64,000 nt of DNA from Rhabdobacter roseus (GTDB lineage Bacteria > Bacteroidota > Bacteroidia > Cytophagales > Spirosomataceae), in NCBI RefSeq assembly GCF_014202275.1, contig NZ_JACHGF010000003.1, positions 620,001 through 684,000 on the forward strand, in the 5' to 3' direction. Position numbers and translations under genes: made by a program. Each line of letters starts with the position of its first letter. Position 1 is the stretch's first letter. Shown piece by piece: positions 20,624-61,204 of this stretch. The notes beneath the pieces were generated by a model. The model worked only from the letters and a program-made list of their open reading frames with translations. It was not told the DNA's origin and made no database searches.

Positions 20624-20695
20624 GACCCCGTAGTTCAACGGATAGAATAGAAGTTTCCTAAACTTTAGATATGGGTTCGATTCCCGTCGGGGTCA
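20624..20695 (+). tRNA. tRNA-Arg, anticodon CCT; prophage integration target
   Basis: A complete cloverleaf: acceptor GACCCCG/CGGGGTC, anticodon stem GAAGT/ACTTT around loop TTCCTAA (anticodon CCT, decoding AGG), T arm ATGGG-TTCGATT-CCCGT, discriminator A, CCA not encoded. It is immediately followed by a tyrosine recombinase gene and the prophage, which marks its 3' half as the probable attachment core. Confidence 0.93.
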
Positions 20696-20829
20696 CAAAA
20701 TTGACATCAGTTGATACAAATTGCTACAAAAAGGGCTAGTAGAGGCCCTTTTTGGTCGTTTCGGAGCTGTATCCATATCAGAATATAGCAAGATATACAA
20801 CAAAATGTTTCAGGGATGTTTCAGGGGAA

Positions 20830-22041
20830 ATGACATTTGAGCTCGAGCTAGATAACTATAAACGGAAGGATGGTACCCACAACATCCAGATCCGGATCAC
20901 GGAGAACCGGCGGCTCCGGCGCGTGTCGACGGGCTTCGCCTTACTGCCCCACCAGTGGAACCCGGAAAAAAAACAAGTCCGGAAGTCCCACCCCCACGCT
21001 GCCCAGATAAATGCGGCGCTAAAATCGAAGATGCTCGAAATAGAGCAAACCCAGCTGAGCGCCCAGCTACGAAGTACCCGGATCTCGTCCGGAGACATGC
21101 AAAAAAAGTTGCGGGGCGTGTCGCTTACCGAAAATTTTTTCGAGTTCGCCGACCGCCGGATCGCGCGCCTGAAAAGCCCGTCCACCCGGAAGGCCCAGAC
21201 CTCCGTCGTCGATAAGCTCGAAACCTATTGCAGCAAGCGGGCGCTCTACTTCGAAGACATTACCTACGACTTCATCCTGGACTACCAAAAGTACCTTCGG
21301 AGCCTGGGCAACAGCACCAATACCGTACACGCCAACATGAAAACCATCAAGGCCATCTACAACGAGGCCCTGAACGCCGGGATGTTTCGCGCGGACAACA
21401 ACCCCTGGCGGGTAGTGAAGCTTAAGAAAGCGATTTCGAAGCGGGCCAAGCTGAACGAGGAGCAGATCCTGGCGCTGGATACCATGGAAGGCCTGAGCGG
21501 GAACATGCTGCACGCCCGGAATTTCTTCATGCTGGCTTTTTTCCTGCAAGGGATGCGGGCCAGCGACCTGCTCCAGCTCCGCTGGACCAACATCCGGAAC
21601 GGCCGCTGTGAGTACCGGGCATCGAAGACGGAAAAAACCCGATCGAAAAAAATAGTAGCCCGGGCGCAGGAAATCCTGGAGCACTACCAGCCCATGAAGC
21701 GGGGAGCCGATGACTATATTTTTCCATTTCTGAAAAAATACAAGCCCAAGGACTATACCGAAGATCGCTGGCGGGAGGTGCTCGACGCCAAGATCTCGAT
21801 CGTGAACAACAACCTGAAGAAGGTAGCCGCCCGGCTAGGGCTCCCTTCGATCAGTACTCACGTGGCCCGGCATAGCTTCGCGGACATTGCCCTCCGGAGG
21901 TCGGGCGGGAACCTCAATGCCGTGTCCGGTGCCCTGGATCACTCCAGCCCCAGCGTCACCATCAACTACATCAACGCCGCCTCCAAAGCCGAAAACGACG
22001 ACCTGGTGGACGTCGTTTTCAGGGTACCGGAGAAGGAGTAA
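20830..22041 (+). CDS. Tyrosine-type site-specific recombinase (prophage integrase)
   Basis: 403 residues from the ATG at 20830; the longer open frame from 20752 begins too near the tRNA and has no domain support. An Arm/SAM-like N-terminal region (about 95-200) precedes the catalytic domain with Arg243 in GMRASDLLQLRW, the His-x-x-Arg box at 344-347 (HVARHSF), His371 in LDHSSP and the nucleophile Tyr380 in TINYINA. It lies 135 bp from the tRNA-Arg and reads away from it, the usual place for the enzyme that integrates the phage there. Confidence 0.93.
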   Translation: MTFELELDNYKRKDGTHNIQIRITENRRLRRVSTGFALLPHQWNPEKKQVRKSHPHAAQINAALKSKMLEIEQTQLSAQLRSTRISSGDMQKKLRGVSLTENFFEFADRRIARLKSPSTRKAQTSVVDKLETYCSKRALYFEDITYDFILDYQKYLRSLGNSTNTVHANMKTIKAIYNEALNAGMFRADNNPWRVVKLKKAISKRAKLNEEQILALDTMEGLSGNMLHARNFFMLAFFLQGMRASDLLQLRWTNIRNGRCEYRASKTEKTRSKKIVARAQEILEHYQPMKRGADDYIFPFLKKYKPKDYTEDRWREVLDAKISIVNNNLKKVAARLGLPSISTHVARHSFADIALRRSGGNLNAVSGALDHSSPSVTINYINAASKAENDDLVDVVFRVPEKE

Positions 22042-22490: not shown

Positions 22491-23438
22491 TTATTGGAAG
22501 AACGGGTGATCGACCAATGACAGGGCTGACTCCAGACTATCAGCCCGAATGTAGGTCTGGAAGGATTGCTCGGTGGTATGGCCCGTGATTTTCCGAATTT
22601 TCATGCTGGGCACACCCGCCAGAAACGCATTAGTGGCGAAGCTACGCCGGGCGGTATGGGAGCTTACCAGCTCGTACTTGGGTCGTACCACGGCGTGTTT
22701 TTTCCCTCCTTTCGTGTAGCGCTCCACCACCTCCGTCGTCAGCCCAGCCTGCTTACAGATTTCCTTGATAAACCGGTTATAGAGCTGGATCGACATCATT
22801 CCCCCAAAGTCCCAGTTGCGCCGTTCCAGGATCTCCAGCATTATTTTCGAGATGGGTATCACCACGTCCTGGTCCGTTTTTTGGGTTGTTATTCGGAAAA
22901 AGAGCCGATCCTGTACCTGGATGACATAGAGCCGGGGTTCTTTCAGCAACCGACGCATGTCCGAAAAGCGTAGCCCGCAGTGGCATTGCAGCACGAAGGC
23001 ATCCCGGATTCGGGTTCGACCCCAATTGTACCTGCTTTGGAGGAGTTTGTGTATTTCCTCCGGACCAACGAATACTTTGGTCGTGAGCTCATTGCTCAAT
23101 TTGAAATCGTCGGCCGGGAAGAAAATGCGTTCGGCTTTGCAGTGCTTCCGCTGAAAGGTCTTCAGCTTACCCAGCGTACTGGAAATGGTGTTTTTTCGGA
23201 GATCCAGAAATATTAAGTAGTCCCGGAAGCCTTCATACCAGGTTTCGTCCATCTCGTCCGGATAGACCACCTTGTCACCGATGAACCTGACAGCATGGTT
23301 GTAGATCGTCTCGTAGGAGCCAATGGAGCGCGGCGAAAGCAGGTCCCCATGGATCGACTTCACGATACCGGTTTTCATGCCGATCAGCCGTTCCTGGTAG
23401 AAGTCCAGGAACGGGCGATTATTATTTTCGGAGGCCAT
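22491..23438 (-). CDS. Second tyrosine-type site-specific recombinase
   Basis: 315 residues from ATG 23438, which overlaps the stop of the exonuclease gene by one base (TAATG). The phage_int_SAM_5-type N-terminal domain (about 10-110) is followed by a catalytic domain with Arg157 (CGLRFSDM), His261-x-x-Arg264 (SHTARRSF), His287 (GHTTEQ) and the nucleophile Tyr296 (YIRA). It is complete and oriented against the forward integrase 450 bp away. It may act in excision, in inversion of a prophage segment, or be a leftover from an older element. Confidence 0.9.
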   Translation of the reverse strand: MASENNNRPFLDFYQERLIGMKTGIVKSIHGDLLSPRSIGSYETIYNHAVRFIGDKVVYPDEMDETWYEGFRDYLIFLDLRKNTISSTLGKLKTFQRKHCKAERIFFPADDFKLSNELTTKVFVGPEEIHKLLQSRYNWGRTRIRDAFVLQCHCGLRFSDMRRLLKEPRLYVIQVQDRLFFRITTQKTDQDVVIPISKIMLEILERRNWDFGGMMSIQLYNRFIKEICKQAGLTTEVVERYTKGGKKHAVVRPKYELVSSHTARRSFATNAFLAGVPSMKIRKITGHTTEQSFQTYIRADSLESALSLVDHPFFQ

Positions 23439-23992
23439 TAGATTACTACCGTCTCCGGGTCGGCGGTATCGTTGAGCTCCAGGAACCGCCACACGGCCAG
23501 CGTGGCCAGGGCGTCGGCCAGGGCTCCGTGAGGGGTACCTATCCATTCGTACCTAACGTGCTCCGCTGCCAGTATCAGCTTGTGCCGTTTCCATTCACCT
23601 GGGCGCTTCGGATCTGGTACACCCATATACTCAGAAAAGCGATTCATGCAGCAGATTACCTCACTACCTTCCAGGGACGAAATGGGTAAGAATCGCGTAT
23701 CGAAATCGGCTCCGTACATCACTACCCTTTGGCCTTGCAGTAGAACTTCCAACACCGGCGTAAGGTCTGCCATTGTAGGGAAGGTACCTTGAAAAATGAA
23801 TTCTGGGGTAATGCCGTTCGTTTCCATCGCTTTGGGCCATTCGGTATGGCGTTCAGGGCGGATGTAGGTATCCAGGATTACTTGGCCGTCCTGGTCGACG
23901 ATCGCGATCGAGAGCGCTTCGTCTTCAGGCGTAACCCCGGTGGTTTCGGTGTCGAGCACCAGGTACTTCGTTTTTTTATCTATCTTTGCCAT
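23438..23992 (-). CDS. DnaQ-like 3'-5' exonuclease (DEDD family)
   Basis: 184 residues starting MAKIDKKTKYLVLDTETTGV. Motif I DTETTG supplies the first Asp/Glu pair, YGADFDTRFL is motif II, and HGALADALATLAVW near the C terminus is motif III with the catalytic His/Asp. It resembles stand-alone RNase T/DnaQ-like nucleases of prophages and probably trims DNA ends during phage replication or recombination. It is coupled to the second recombinase by a TAATG overlap. Confidence 0.85.
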   Translation of the reverse strand: MAKIDKKTKYLVLDTETTGVTPEDEALSIAIVDQDGQVILDTYIRPERHTEWPKAMETNGITPEFIFQGTFPTMADLTPVLEVLLQGQRVVMYGADFDTRFLPISSLEGSEVICCMNRFSEYMGVPDPKRPGEWKRHKLILAAEHVRYEWIGTPHGALADALATLAVWRFLELNDTADPETVVI

Positions 23993-58784: not shown

Positions 58785-60245
58785 TTAACTGCTGTAGTAC
58801 CCTTCGCCGTCGCCCTGCATGTAGTCTTCCACGTACACGATCGTGGCCGGGCTTACTTCACCGGCCGCACGCCGGGCGCGCTTCGCGGCCTGGAAGCTGG
58901 GGGGCTTGAATCCGGTGCTGTAGCGGTCCTGGTACATCCGGTTAAACCGATCCTTGTACTGGGTACCCAGCCCCGCAAAAATGGCGTCGTAGTACAGGTA
59001 CAGGCCTATCTCGGTTTTGCCCGCTACCTCTTTGCGCGGCGGCTGGCCGGTGCGGAGCTTCAGGAAGTCGCGCCGGGCGGTTACCAGCAGGCGGTCGCAG
59101 CGCTTTTGGTGGGCGTAGTCATCCCGGCGCTTCTTGAGCTCTATCTTGTCTTTCTTCACCCAGGCCTCAATGCCGATGAATCCGCGGTGGTTTTCCCGAT
59201 CAAAGTACCCTTTCCCGGCCTTGTGCACGGCGTAGGGATCGGGTCGGTAGGCGTCGGGGTGGTTTTCGTAGTAGCGCCCGGCCTTGTCGAGCTTGCCGAG
59301 CTGGTATACCTGTACGTTAAGCCATTCGGCGTCGGTCAGGGGGTCGGTGAAGTTGTTGTACACGCCGGTCATGATCGCCGCCAGGGCTTTTTCCTGCTGC
59401 TGGGCGCTGAACTCCCGGCCGGGGTAGATCACCCGCCAGGCGTAGATCCAGAACTCCACCAGCATCTTGAGGTGCTTTTGGGGCAGGCCCTTCGGGCTTT
59501 GCGGCATTGGCCCCTGCGCGGCCCGCTGCGGGGCCATCGCCGCCCGCCGCGGCGCCGCGCCCCCCCCAGCTTGATCTTCTCTCCGTCCGGAAACCACCGG
59601 GGCTTCTAGGGGTAGGGCGGGCGTTTCTGCTCGACCCCTCTGTCCCTGACTGTTCTCTCCGTGCCCCACAAACATATCCGCTTTCGTAGTTTCTCCTTTT
59701 TCTATTATCTCTCTGTGAGTACTCTTAAGCGGAAAATCTTTCGGGTTTTGCCCCTCAAAAAGGCCATGGGGGGCGGCTTCGAGCGGGCGGGCGGGTGCTT
59801 CCGGCTCCGGCCCGAACAAAAATTTTGGGCTTATCCACACCTCAAAATCCTGCCGTGTGCCGTGAAACTTCGTCCGGATGAACCCCAGCTCCCGCAGGCG
59901 CTTCAGGTGGTTCCTGACCGTCCTATCGGTGCAGCGGCAGTAGGGAGCCAGGCGTACGTTGTTGGTGCGCAGGCTGGGCGGGCTCTCCTGGGTGTAGGCA
60001 CCGGCGGGCATAATGGAGGCCGTGCGGTTGTAGCTCCGCACGTACTCCGTCACCAGGGCGTGGTACGTGGTGCTGATGGCCTCCGGGATCAGCCCTACCC
60101 TCCGGTGTACCACCTGCACCACGGGCTCACCGTCGGGCGTGTGGGTGGTACGGGTCACGGGCTGCGTGGGGCAGCTGCGGTTGTGCGCATCGATGGCCTG
60201 GAAGGCCCGCCGTACTACCTCCGAAATCTCAATTCGTGGCAGCAT
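58785..60245 (-). CDS. Putative phage replication initiator with winged helix
   Basis: 486 residues. An N-terminal winged helix (about 70-145) has APYCRCTDRTVRNHLKRLRE then LGFIRTKFHGTRQDFEVWIS. A low-complexity linker (about 150-260) precedes a second domain with KMLVEFWIYAWRVIYPGREF, LTDAEWLNVQVYQLGKLDKA and RDDYAHQKRCDRLLVTARRD. The layout recalls DnaD/replication-protein-like phage initiators that recruit a helicase loader. Supported by position and winged helix only; a helicase or primase is not seen in this window. Confidence 0.6.
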   Translation of the reverse strand: MLPRIEISEVVRRAFQAIDAHNRSCPTQPVTRTTHTPDGEPVVQVVHRRVGLIPEAISTTYHALVTEYVRSYNRTASIMPAGAYTQESPPSLRTNNVRLAPYCRCTDRTVRNHLKRLRELGFIRTKFHGTRQDFEVWISPKFLFGPEPEAPARPLEAAPHGLFEGQNPKDFPLKSTHREIIEKGETTKADMFVGHGENSQGQRGRAETPALPLEAPVVSGRREDQAGGGAAPRRAAMAPQRAAQGPMPQSPKGLPQKHLKMLVEFWIYAWRVIYPGREFSAQQQEKALAAIMTGVYNNFTDPLTDAEWLNVQVYQLGKLDKAGRYYENHPDAYRPDPYAVHKAGKGYFDRENHRGFIGIEAWVKKDKIELKKRRDDYAHQKRCDRLLVTARRDFLKLRTGQPPRKEVAGKTEIGLYLYYDAIFAGLGTQYKDRFNRMYQDRYSTGFKPPSFQAAKRARRAAGEVSPATIVYVEDYMQGDGEGYYSS

Positions 60246-60684
60246 AAGGTCGTACGGTTAGGATCGATGTACGCCGGATGGCCTCGATCTCGTAAGGGAG
60301 CAGGAAACCTCTCAGGGCCATGCTGAGGGCATCGTAGGCATCGCGGACGCTGGAAGCATATACTAGAAAATTATTCGCCGTACGCTTCGTTTTGCCGGTG
60401 CGCTCGTCTACCGTCTGGTATGAGGCCTTGACCTGGTACCAGACGGTGTTCTCGTCGCCCATTACTACATCATCATCCAGGCCAAACACGTCCGTGAGCG
60501 GGAAGGGCGTCAGCGTTTTCACCTCAAAGCTCGTCTCCAGTTCTTCCGTCAGGAGCTCGATCAGGCGCGCTTCGGCCTCCGTGAAGCTCATGGCGTCGAT
60601 CAGGTGCGCCTCCCGGATTTGTTTCAGACGGCCGGTCTCGTCTTCTTTCATGTAGGCGATTTTGCCCAGATGCCAGGTAGCCAT
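60229..60684 (-). CDS. DUF4494-like protein
   Basis: 151 residues. IREAHLIDAMSFTEAEARLI and WYQVKASYQTVDERTGKTKR are typical for DUF4494 proteins of Bacteroidota mobile elements (function unknown). It overlaps the replication-like gene by 17 bp, so the two are co-expressed. Confidence 0.75.
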   Translation of the reverse strand: MATWHLGKIAYMKEDETGRLKQIREAHLIDAMSFTEAEARLIELLTEELETSFEVKTLTPFPLTDVFGLDDDVVMGDENTVWYQVKASYQTVDERTGKTKRTANNFLVYASSVRDAYDALSMALRGFLLPYEIEAIRRTSILTVRPYAATN

Positions 60685-60787
60685 TTTCGTAGGTTTTTAG
60701 TGGTTATTTGAAAGTACCTTCCCTTACCCGCGCCGGGCGTTACCCCAGCGCGGTTCGGGCACTCTAGTAGGCTTCTGCTCTACCCTG

Positions 60788-60881
60788 TAGTGGTGGCTGG
60801 CCTCGAACCAGCGCCTCCGGGCTGCTCCCCTCAATATTCTATGCAGCGCCGGCGAGCTTCCATAAGCTACTCCACACCACT
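60788..60881 (-). ncRNA. tRNA-like element lacking a normal anticodon arm
   Basis: Read on the minus strand from 60881: acceptor AGTGGTG pairs with CACCACT (discriminator A at 60788), D stem GAGT/GCTC with loop AGCTTATGGAA, T arm GCTGG-TTCGAGG-CCAGC. In place of a 17-base anticodon arm there is a long hairpin: CCGG-(C)-GCTGC ... GCAGC-CCGG around a 17-base loop ATAGAATATTGAGGGGA, 9 bp plus one bulge. CCA is not encoded. It sits in a 275-bp gap between phage genes. Normal tRNA folding around it (GCTC-G-CCGG ... CCGG-AGGC-GCTGG) is preserved, so it looks like a tRNA whose anticodon loop gained an insertion. Confidence 0.65.
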
Positions 60882-60958
60882 CCTGCCCCTGCGGACCGCC
60901 GCGCGGTCGTAAGGCATGGGGCCCCCTGCACTAAATCCACACCAAATCATGAACTTTC

Positions 60959-61204
60959 TTACAACTTGCTTTCAAGGAAGGCGCTGAGCGCCTTCTGCCG
61001 GTTTCGGATCATGAATCGCTCCTCCGGCCAATACTTCTGGTACCTTTCCAGCTGGTCGCGTTTGCGGGCTTCTTCGGCTCCGGTGCGCCAGAGCTCCAGT
61101 ACCTGGTCCCAGTACTCCAATGGCCTGGCAAGCTGCTCTAAGCGCTTGCACAAGTCTTCGGCCCAAGCCCTCGACTGGCCGATCGTTCCTTTTTCTGGCT
61201 TCAT
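60959..61204 (-). CDS. Hypothetical early phage protein (81 aa)
   Basis: Helical with Lys/Arg-rich end (KRDQLERYQKYWPEERFMIR). Last gene of a five-gene run coupled by ATGA overlaps (62382 to 60959). No family recognised. Confidence 0.5.
   Translation of the reverse strand: MKPEKGTIGQSRAWAEDLCKRLEQLARPLEYWDQVLELWRTGAEEARKRDQLERYQKYWPEERFMIRNRQKALSAFLESKL

Follow-up and report, generated by a model that had tools for sequence, protein, structure and literature searches.

We identified a tRNA-shaped element in the window (the whole stretch of 64,000 nt of Rhabdobacter roseus DNA that was analysed) which, judging from sequence comparison, is one of a fast-changing group of tRNA-shaped RNAs located just before the replication gene in related prophages. 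Rather than the remnant of a tRNA, it is probably a functional RNA signal. Among the roles raised in the original prediction (a decoy for anticodon nucleases or aminoacyl-tRNA synthetases, a processing signal or a degraded tRNA), a processing signal fits best. The tRNA resemblance, the position, the strand and the pairing of a hairpin in an adjoining conserved module are computational results. In minus-strand order, the features are:

60959..61204, minus strand: short 81-aa ORF lying 77 nt upstream of the RNA
60788..60881, minus strand: tRNA-like element with an initiator-tRNA-like body and an expanded anticodon arm (from arm pairing, scanners and alignment to the host initiator tRNA)
60817..60852, minus strand: expanded anticodon arm, 36 nt against the usual 17 (from folding and alignment to the host initiator tRNA)
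60717..60787, minus strand: conserved 3' module, consisting of CAGGGTAG, a small hairpin, a GC-rich hairpin with a GTAACG loop, then GTAA-GGG
60229..60684, minus strand: gene for a DUF4494 protein, the nearest gene on the 3' side of the RNA, after a spacer of 104 nt
58785..60245, minus strand: replication-initiation-like gene (Rep), with a weak match to phrog_270 (E 6.7e-4)

The gene order at the element is 81-aa ORF, element, DUF4494 gene, Rep. A prophage location had been proposed and agrees with the surroundings, as a head maturation protease gene is present and a phage-integrase gene comes after a tRNA-Arg(CCT) gene, close to another integrase-family gene on the opposite strand (window 20624-22041, 22491-23546); this region is the probable attachment end of the prophage. 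Between the upstream ORF and the element, short recurring motifs, AGGGTTTA or GGTGTGGAT, were seen by eye (window ~60900-60940, minus strand; also at related loci), a possible promoter or signal. A repeat search near Rep returned only short two-copy families.

The tRNA-shaped element is real and lies on the minus strand, with its 5' end at 60881 and a discriminator A at 60788. Its acceptor stem (AGTGGTG/CACCACT) is paired at 7/7 positions and its T arm (GCTGG-TTCGAGG-CCAGC) at 5/5, and the D arm (GAGT-AGCTTATGGAA-GCTC) is intact with GG present in the loop; all three keep tRNA spacing, as had been predicted. The anticodon arm reads CCGG-C-GCTGC-17 nt loop-GCAGC-CCGG and folds as 4 bp, one bulge and 5 bp around a loop of 17 bases, reproducing the 9-bp stem with one bulge first described, and the flanks given there (CCGG and CCGG, then the variable loop AGGC) are found as well. 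The 5-bp stem and 7-nt loop of a canonical anticodon arm are absent, in keeping with the claim that the element cannot decode normally, while CAU, likely the ancestral anticodon, can still be read. Only one full copy is present in the host genome.

Where did this body come from? Among 32 host tRNA sequences from 30 loci (a search of the same genome with the Rfam tRNA model, RF00005, gave 38 matches, the window element not among them), the closest is the initiator tRNA-Met. It scores 46.2 over the whole body against 38.9 for the next-best host tRNA and 26.5 against 22.3 over the 3' half; the 5' half on its own gives no separation (19.1 against 19.0). The element has a GAG.-type D stem with A11 like the host initiator, and its T-arm stretch is almost identical. 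In this alignment CAU remains readable and about 17 nt are inserted after it, which bears out the earlier impression of an insertion placed in the loop. Initiator tRNAs typically have an unpaired 1-72 position. Unlike a bacterial initiator tRNA (tRNA-fMet), the element has an A1-U72 pair, besides the extra bases beside CAU. Elsewhere in the host genome, a tRNA cluster (G000 C2:355143-355793) includes two Lys genes along with several tRNA matches of low score, the lowest at 27.5 bits.

A strict scanner for acceptor, D and T arms matched the element and the ordinary tRNA-Arg in the window, and had no matches in 40 Markov sequences of 64 kb, in which its relaxed version had 20. The strict version of a scanner for acceptor and T arms alone gave none in 20 Markov sequences of 64 kb on both strands; relaxed and limited to elements of at least 50 nt, it gave 4 in 20 (2,560 kb, both strands counted). 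Folding energy on the minus strand departs only mildly from shuffles (z -1.71; 11/200 shuffles as good) and, since the opposite strand folds with z -2.93, is by itself weak evidence. ARAGORN did not call the window element. In the suggested check with a tRNA model, RF00005 at its gathering score did not match the element, and Rfam at E<=10 found no tRNA match in 351 bases around it. Over the window, no Rfam family matched the element or the module, and two chance-level matches belonged to unrelated families (E 4.8 and 9.6). ARAGORN called 20 of the 37 elements compared below, several as unknown or odd types, and in 15 related loci the tRNA family was the only Rfam family matched (8 times); the Rfam C4 family matched neither the window nor these 15 loci. 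Comparison of the element's DNA with a phage collection gave weak matches only (E 0.9 or worse) and was set aside, as was a search of viral contigs for the expanded-initiator-tRNA pattern, which returned 16 stretches that were, among the matches listed, mostly ordinary tRNA arrays. No description of such an element was found in the literature searched, which comprised titles and abstract openings with partial coverage.

Homologues of Rep are present in 27 of 222 genomes of the family and, at E<=1e-10, in 44 of 390 genomes of the order. Viral contigs added 27 loci, obtained with an alignment query where the single protein had found no relative, and genome contigs 18 (the sets overlap). Against the phage collection Rep matched nothing, and among plasmids it had just two short matches at 45%. 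The nearest Rep is 72% identical, and no prophage close enough to check this very lineage for broken arms was found. The cleanest test of position comes from 19 loci of 7.7-10 kb picked only for a Rep homologue. The zone within 1.3 kb upstream of Rep (24.7 kb) holds 20 elements with acceptor and T arms (at least 50 nt), all in sense orientation and distributed over 16 of the 19 loci; we found no antisense element upstream of Rep and none at all in the remaining 269.9 kb, both strands. Across 67 non-identical Rep loci (L075 and L097 are not part of them), the relaxed scanner, applied to upstream stretches of about 0.75 to 2.6 kb, detected 41 elements in 33 loci, all sense and none antisense, so that the relatives which the original prediction proposed to look for in other prophages do exist. 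Within the window's own family, 28/33 loci have a scanner match and 25/33 an element of at least 50 nt; by eye, L083, L094 and L100 have an element with a changed T stem or loop. The scanner found no tRNA-type element in the 21 loci of another family of the same order (f12, perhaps Hymenobacteraceae). Tandem elements are present (e.g. L078, L084, L089, L117), and a few predicted ORFs overlap some of the elements, which otherwise form sense-strand tRNA-like folds between genes. L124, about -150 to -90 from Rep, seemingly has another tRNA-like element downstream of a canonical initiator-type tRNA; it is of minimal form, encodes its CCA and weakly matches the module model described below.

The 37 elements compared further are the 41 scanner matches minus four shorter than 50 nt (L095, L096, L121 and L127 at -583). 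They are not independent (for example, one genome contributed L072, L098 and L119, and each of the pairs L080/L129 and L076/L168 consists of near copies) and possibly include chance matches (L166 at -189, L177, L178); for L074, L081 and L082 the length was assigned manually. The anticodon arm is canonical in four (L077, L127, L135, L179), always with CAU, and near-canonical in L085; the majority of the rest show a long hairpin, a shortened stem or loop, or no arm at all. Like the window, L087, L092 and L145 resemble an initiator or Met tRNA that has apparently retained CAU with extra bases beside it. Covariation of the extra hairpins of L087 and L092 was dropped from consideration, as their best folds differ. 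The 57-nt forms L117, L119 and L120, whose 5' ends are ambiguous, keep the acceptor and T arm and have no room for a D arm. A separate observation concerns L074/L122 (G183), about -181 from Rep, where an initiator-like body has a 4-bp stem, a 7-nt loop and the anticodon CUA (amber), called tRNA-Pyl(cta) by ARAGORN; an amber initiator, if that is what it is, would be striking.

The element also seems to behave like a cassette. One genome (G085) has the same 69-nt element, at 99-100% identity, in three prophage loci (C10, C28 and C42; L080, L099, L129), even though the Rep is ~28% identical to the window's at one of them and ~40% at another and the module classes differ. Conversely, two prophages of G074 have ~92% identical Rep and yet carry different elements at the corresponding site. 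Taken together, these sequences suggest that the element is exchanged between prophages as a unit. In G085 the identity seems to end near the ends of the element.

The 3' module and the tie to the replication gene go beyond what was first described. The class A module, with its GTAACG-like loop, directly follows the window copy and its closest relatives, and at least two other module classes are found behind other elements. In an alignment of 14 sequences (A2) the module starts at position 74 in all rows. Double changes occur in 12 of 15 predicted pairs, five of the 15 being the T stem that the scanner requires. The module hairpin played no part in choosing the rows, and 8 of its 10 pairs show double (compensatory) changes; 13 of 140 cells contain a gap or fail to pair. 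We built a model (R1) from the T arm and the module, the window copy included, and it scores 98.7 bits on the window (60702-60812). Among the candidates scored in the 222 family genomes (at most 16 per genome), 17 matches reach 50 bits, situated ~13 to 135 nt 5' of Rep except in the window (457) and G102 (469 nt), where an ORF lies between. This link is mostly built in, as 12 of the 17 are the model's own rows and 2 are copies or near copies; only 3 are new (G011:C42, G013:C656, G013:C442). The informative part is that no match of at least 50 bits away from Rep occurs among those candidates; the next scores are 38.2 bits (G001, at Rep), then about 35 bits and below.

How strictly the module is coupled to a tRNA shape can be seen by aligning copies on the module start. 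The acceptor is paired at 7/7 in 10/18 copies (shifted null 0.9% of 936) and the T stem is complete in 16/18 (null 1.2%), but 16 of the 18 were picked by the scanner (acceptor at least 6/7, T stem 5/5), which makes the T-stem count circular and the acceptor count largely so. An acceptor of at least 6/7 is a weak criterion alone (17/18 copies pass; null 25%); 10 of these 17 reach 7/7, against a null ratio of about 4% (0.9% over 24.9%). Two strong module copies that the scanner did not pick, L121 and L100, carry an altered T loop and are less well paired when the register is kept strict (T stem 1/5 and acceptor 6/7 in L121; T stem 4/5 and no acceptor in L100), which counts against a strict tRNA requirement. 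Outside the window's family, a similar module motif is present in 21 of 32 loci examined, in some right behind an ORF; together with the absence of scanner elements in f12, this indicates that the tRNA shape is not essential. By eye, L150-L161, L176-L182 and L185 (outside the window's family, many of them f12) have a CACAGGGYCTGC-like motif before Rep, often behind a cloverleaf-like fold that is not a tRNA, and at some loci the motif is followed by a hairpin and a U run. The 3'-module pattern was not found in the viral contigs. Terminator-like sites between element and Rep are not a general feature, since they occur in 14/67 loci in sense, about as often as in antisense (13/67; shuffled 6/67).

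Our preferred reading, which is tentative, is that a tRNA gene, here an initiator, was domesticated and now forms the 5' domain of a structured leader RNA in the replication operon, probably read by RNase P and RNase Z. The captured gene would have retained its acceptor, D and T arms, with the anticodon arm left free to change, and the resulting tRNA-shaped domain would adjoin the conserved 3' module and sit 5' of DUF4494 and Rep. RNase P and RNase Z would recognise this domain in the early transcript and cut it at both ends, leaving a replication mRNA headed by the conserved hairpins, which could shield it or regulate it. A cis role in such a leader is favoured by what has been retained of the tRNA, by its location and by its sense orientation; transcription, cleavage and any effect on Rep are inferred. 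Processing by RNase P and RNase Z would be the likeliest mode, because the retained acceptor and T arm are the parts that these enzymes read. On the other hand, encoded CCA blocks RNase Z. Cutting by this enzyme is therefore made less probable by the CCA encoded at positions 74-76 in at least 6/37 elements. According to passages of PMC11143913, the substrates of RNase P include mRNAs, tRNA-like viral ends and phage C4 RNA. The leader reading is further weakened by the similar numbers of sense and antisense terminator-like sites, which leave attenuation possible.

An anti-defence RNA, that is, a decoy or cleavage-resistant tRNA acting against host tRNA nucleases or tRNA-modifying toxins, with an anticodon arm that varies through an arms race, seems rather unlikely to us. 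The variable anticodon arms on a conserved body would suit it, as would the CAU-bearing initiator- or Met-like bodies in the window, L077, L085, L087, L092, L127, L135 and L145 and the recurrence of a near-identical element among one host's prophages that differ in Rep; precedents are the phage tRNAs that evade tRNA nucleases, described in passages of PMC10264068 and in the abstract of PMC11555353. A trans-acting decoy, however, need not sit only upstream of Rep nor abut a conserved module, and some copies (L117, L119, L120, L084) have no D arm or no anticodon-like loop. Such a role is possible above all for the copies that keep CAU, though a decoy leaves the position unexplained. Alternatively, the tRNA shape might be only a stable scaffold for other cis-regulation (an attenuator, a translation enhancer or a protein-binding leader). 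The covariation of the module hairpin, the module motif seen by eye behind other folds or directly behind an ORF outside the window's family, and the non-tRNA T loops of L100 and L121 all speak for this option. It is nonetheless unlikely: terminators are no commoner than on the opposite strand, and A2 shows no variation in TTCGA or in the G-C pair that closes it, although TTC[AG]A and this pair are themselves scanner conditions.

Antisense immunity and plain decay appear less probable still. The CI RNA of P4 and the C4 RNAs of P1 and P7 lie on the sense strand in the leader of a phage operon. An RNA of this kind would be processed by RNase P, pair with the leader and stop the replication operon, the variable arms giving immunity specificity. 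The position and strand of the element match those of CI and C4, the arms do vary, a passage of PMC11143913 lists C4 among the substrates of RNase P, and, outside the window's family, a hairpin plus a U run comes after several copies. Duplex energies to an element's own downstream flank lean below those to other flanks (mean rank 0.35, 35 elements; base composition uncontrolled), but upstream they lean the opposite way (0.63), and the window's own ranks, 0.53 and 0.56, amount to nothing. Watson-Crick runs to own flanks show no excess in 36 elements (-0.13 +- 0.18 upstream, +0.20 +- 0.21 downstream), nor do runs with G-U pairs (-0.19 +- 0.23 and -0.15 +- 0.24). With no excess of complementary runs between variable arms and own flanks, cis pairing as in P4 CI is not supported, and antisense immunity as a whole strikes us as improbable. 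Finally, a decaying phage tRNA gene without function is very unlikely. Canonical initiator-type tRNAs do occur upstream of Rep in L077, L127 and L135, and the window's arm could not decode normally. Yet decay should also break the acceptor and T stems, and the window copy is followed by a conserved module. The degraded tRNA of the original prediction thus finds no favour among the relatives, which keep acceptor and T arms in sense upstream of Rep while the anticodon arm varies. The random decay of arms envisaged there was not seen: the scanner demands both arms and broken copies escape it, and still 16 of the 19 loci have intact, sequence-divergent ones, only upstream of Rep.

Several known systems come close. 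Mitochondrial tRNAs punctuate transcripts, and t-elements are likewise read by tRNA-processing enzymes. The likeness consists of tRNA-shaped folds between genes on the sense strand, with tRNA-processing enzymes as putative readers and no need for an anticodon. In contrast, the elements described here belong to bacterial prophages, lie upstream of one replication gene and have a conserved 3' module, and their cleavage is predicted; tandem elements, which punctuation does not need, count against the leader reading. C4 RNA (Rfam RF01695, listed in PMC2864571) and CI share the sense-strand location in a phage operon leader, whereas our element has D and T arms of the tRNA type, no Rfam C4 match and no excess of complementary runs. 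The nuclease-evading tRNAs of PMC10264068 are also phage-encoded and changed in the anticodon arm; there, in the passages available, the changes are anticodon-loop mutations, and the words 'insertion', 'hairpin' and 'anticodon stem' are absent from the main text, whereas the elements upstream of Rep show insertions or short loops, or lack the arm altogether.

A broader proposal, which we put forward with considerable doubt, is that these elements form an undescribed class of phage leader RNA, in which captured tRNA genes placed before a conserved module at the replication gene have lost decoding and become exchangeable cassettes, with the variable arm giving specificity (in immunity, against nucleases or in the control of processing). 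If true, phages would convert tRNA genes into control elements of replication operons, which could explain some 'odd' phage tRNAs overlooked or mislabelled by annotation tools, and Bacteroidota prophages would hold a concrete, testable RNA family.
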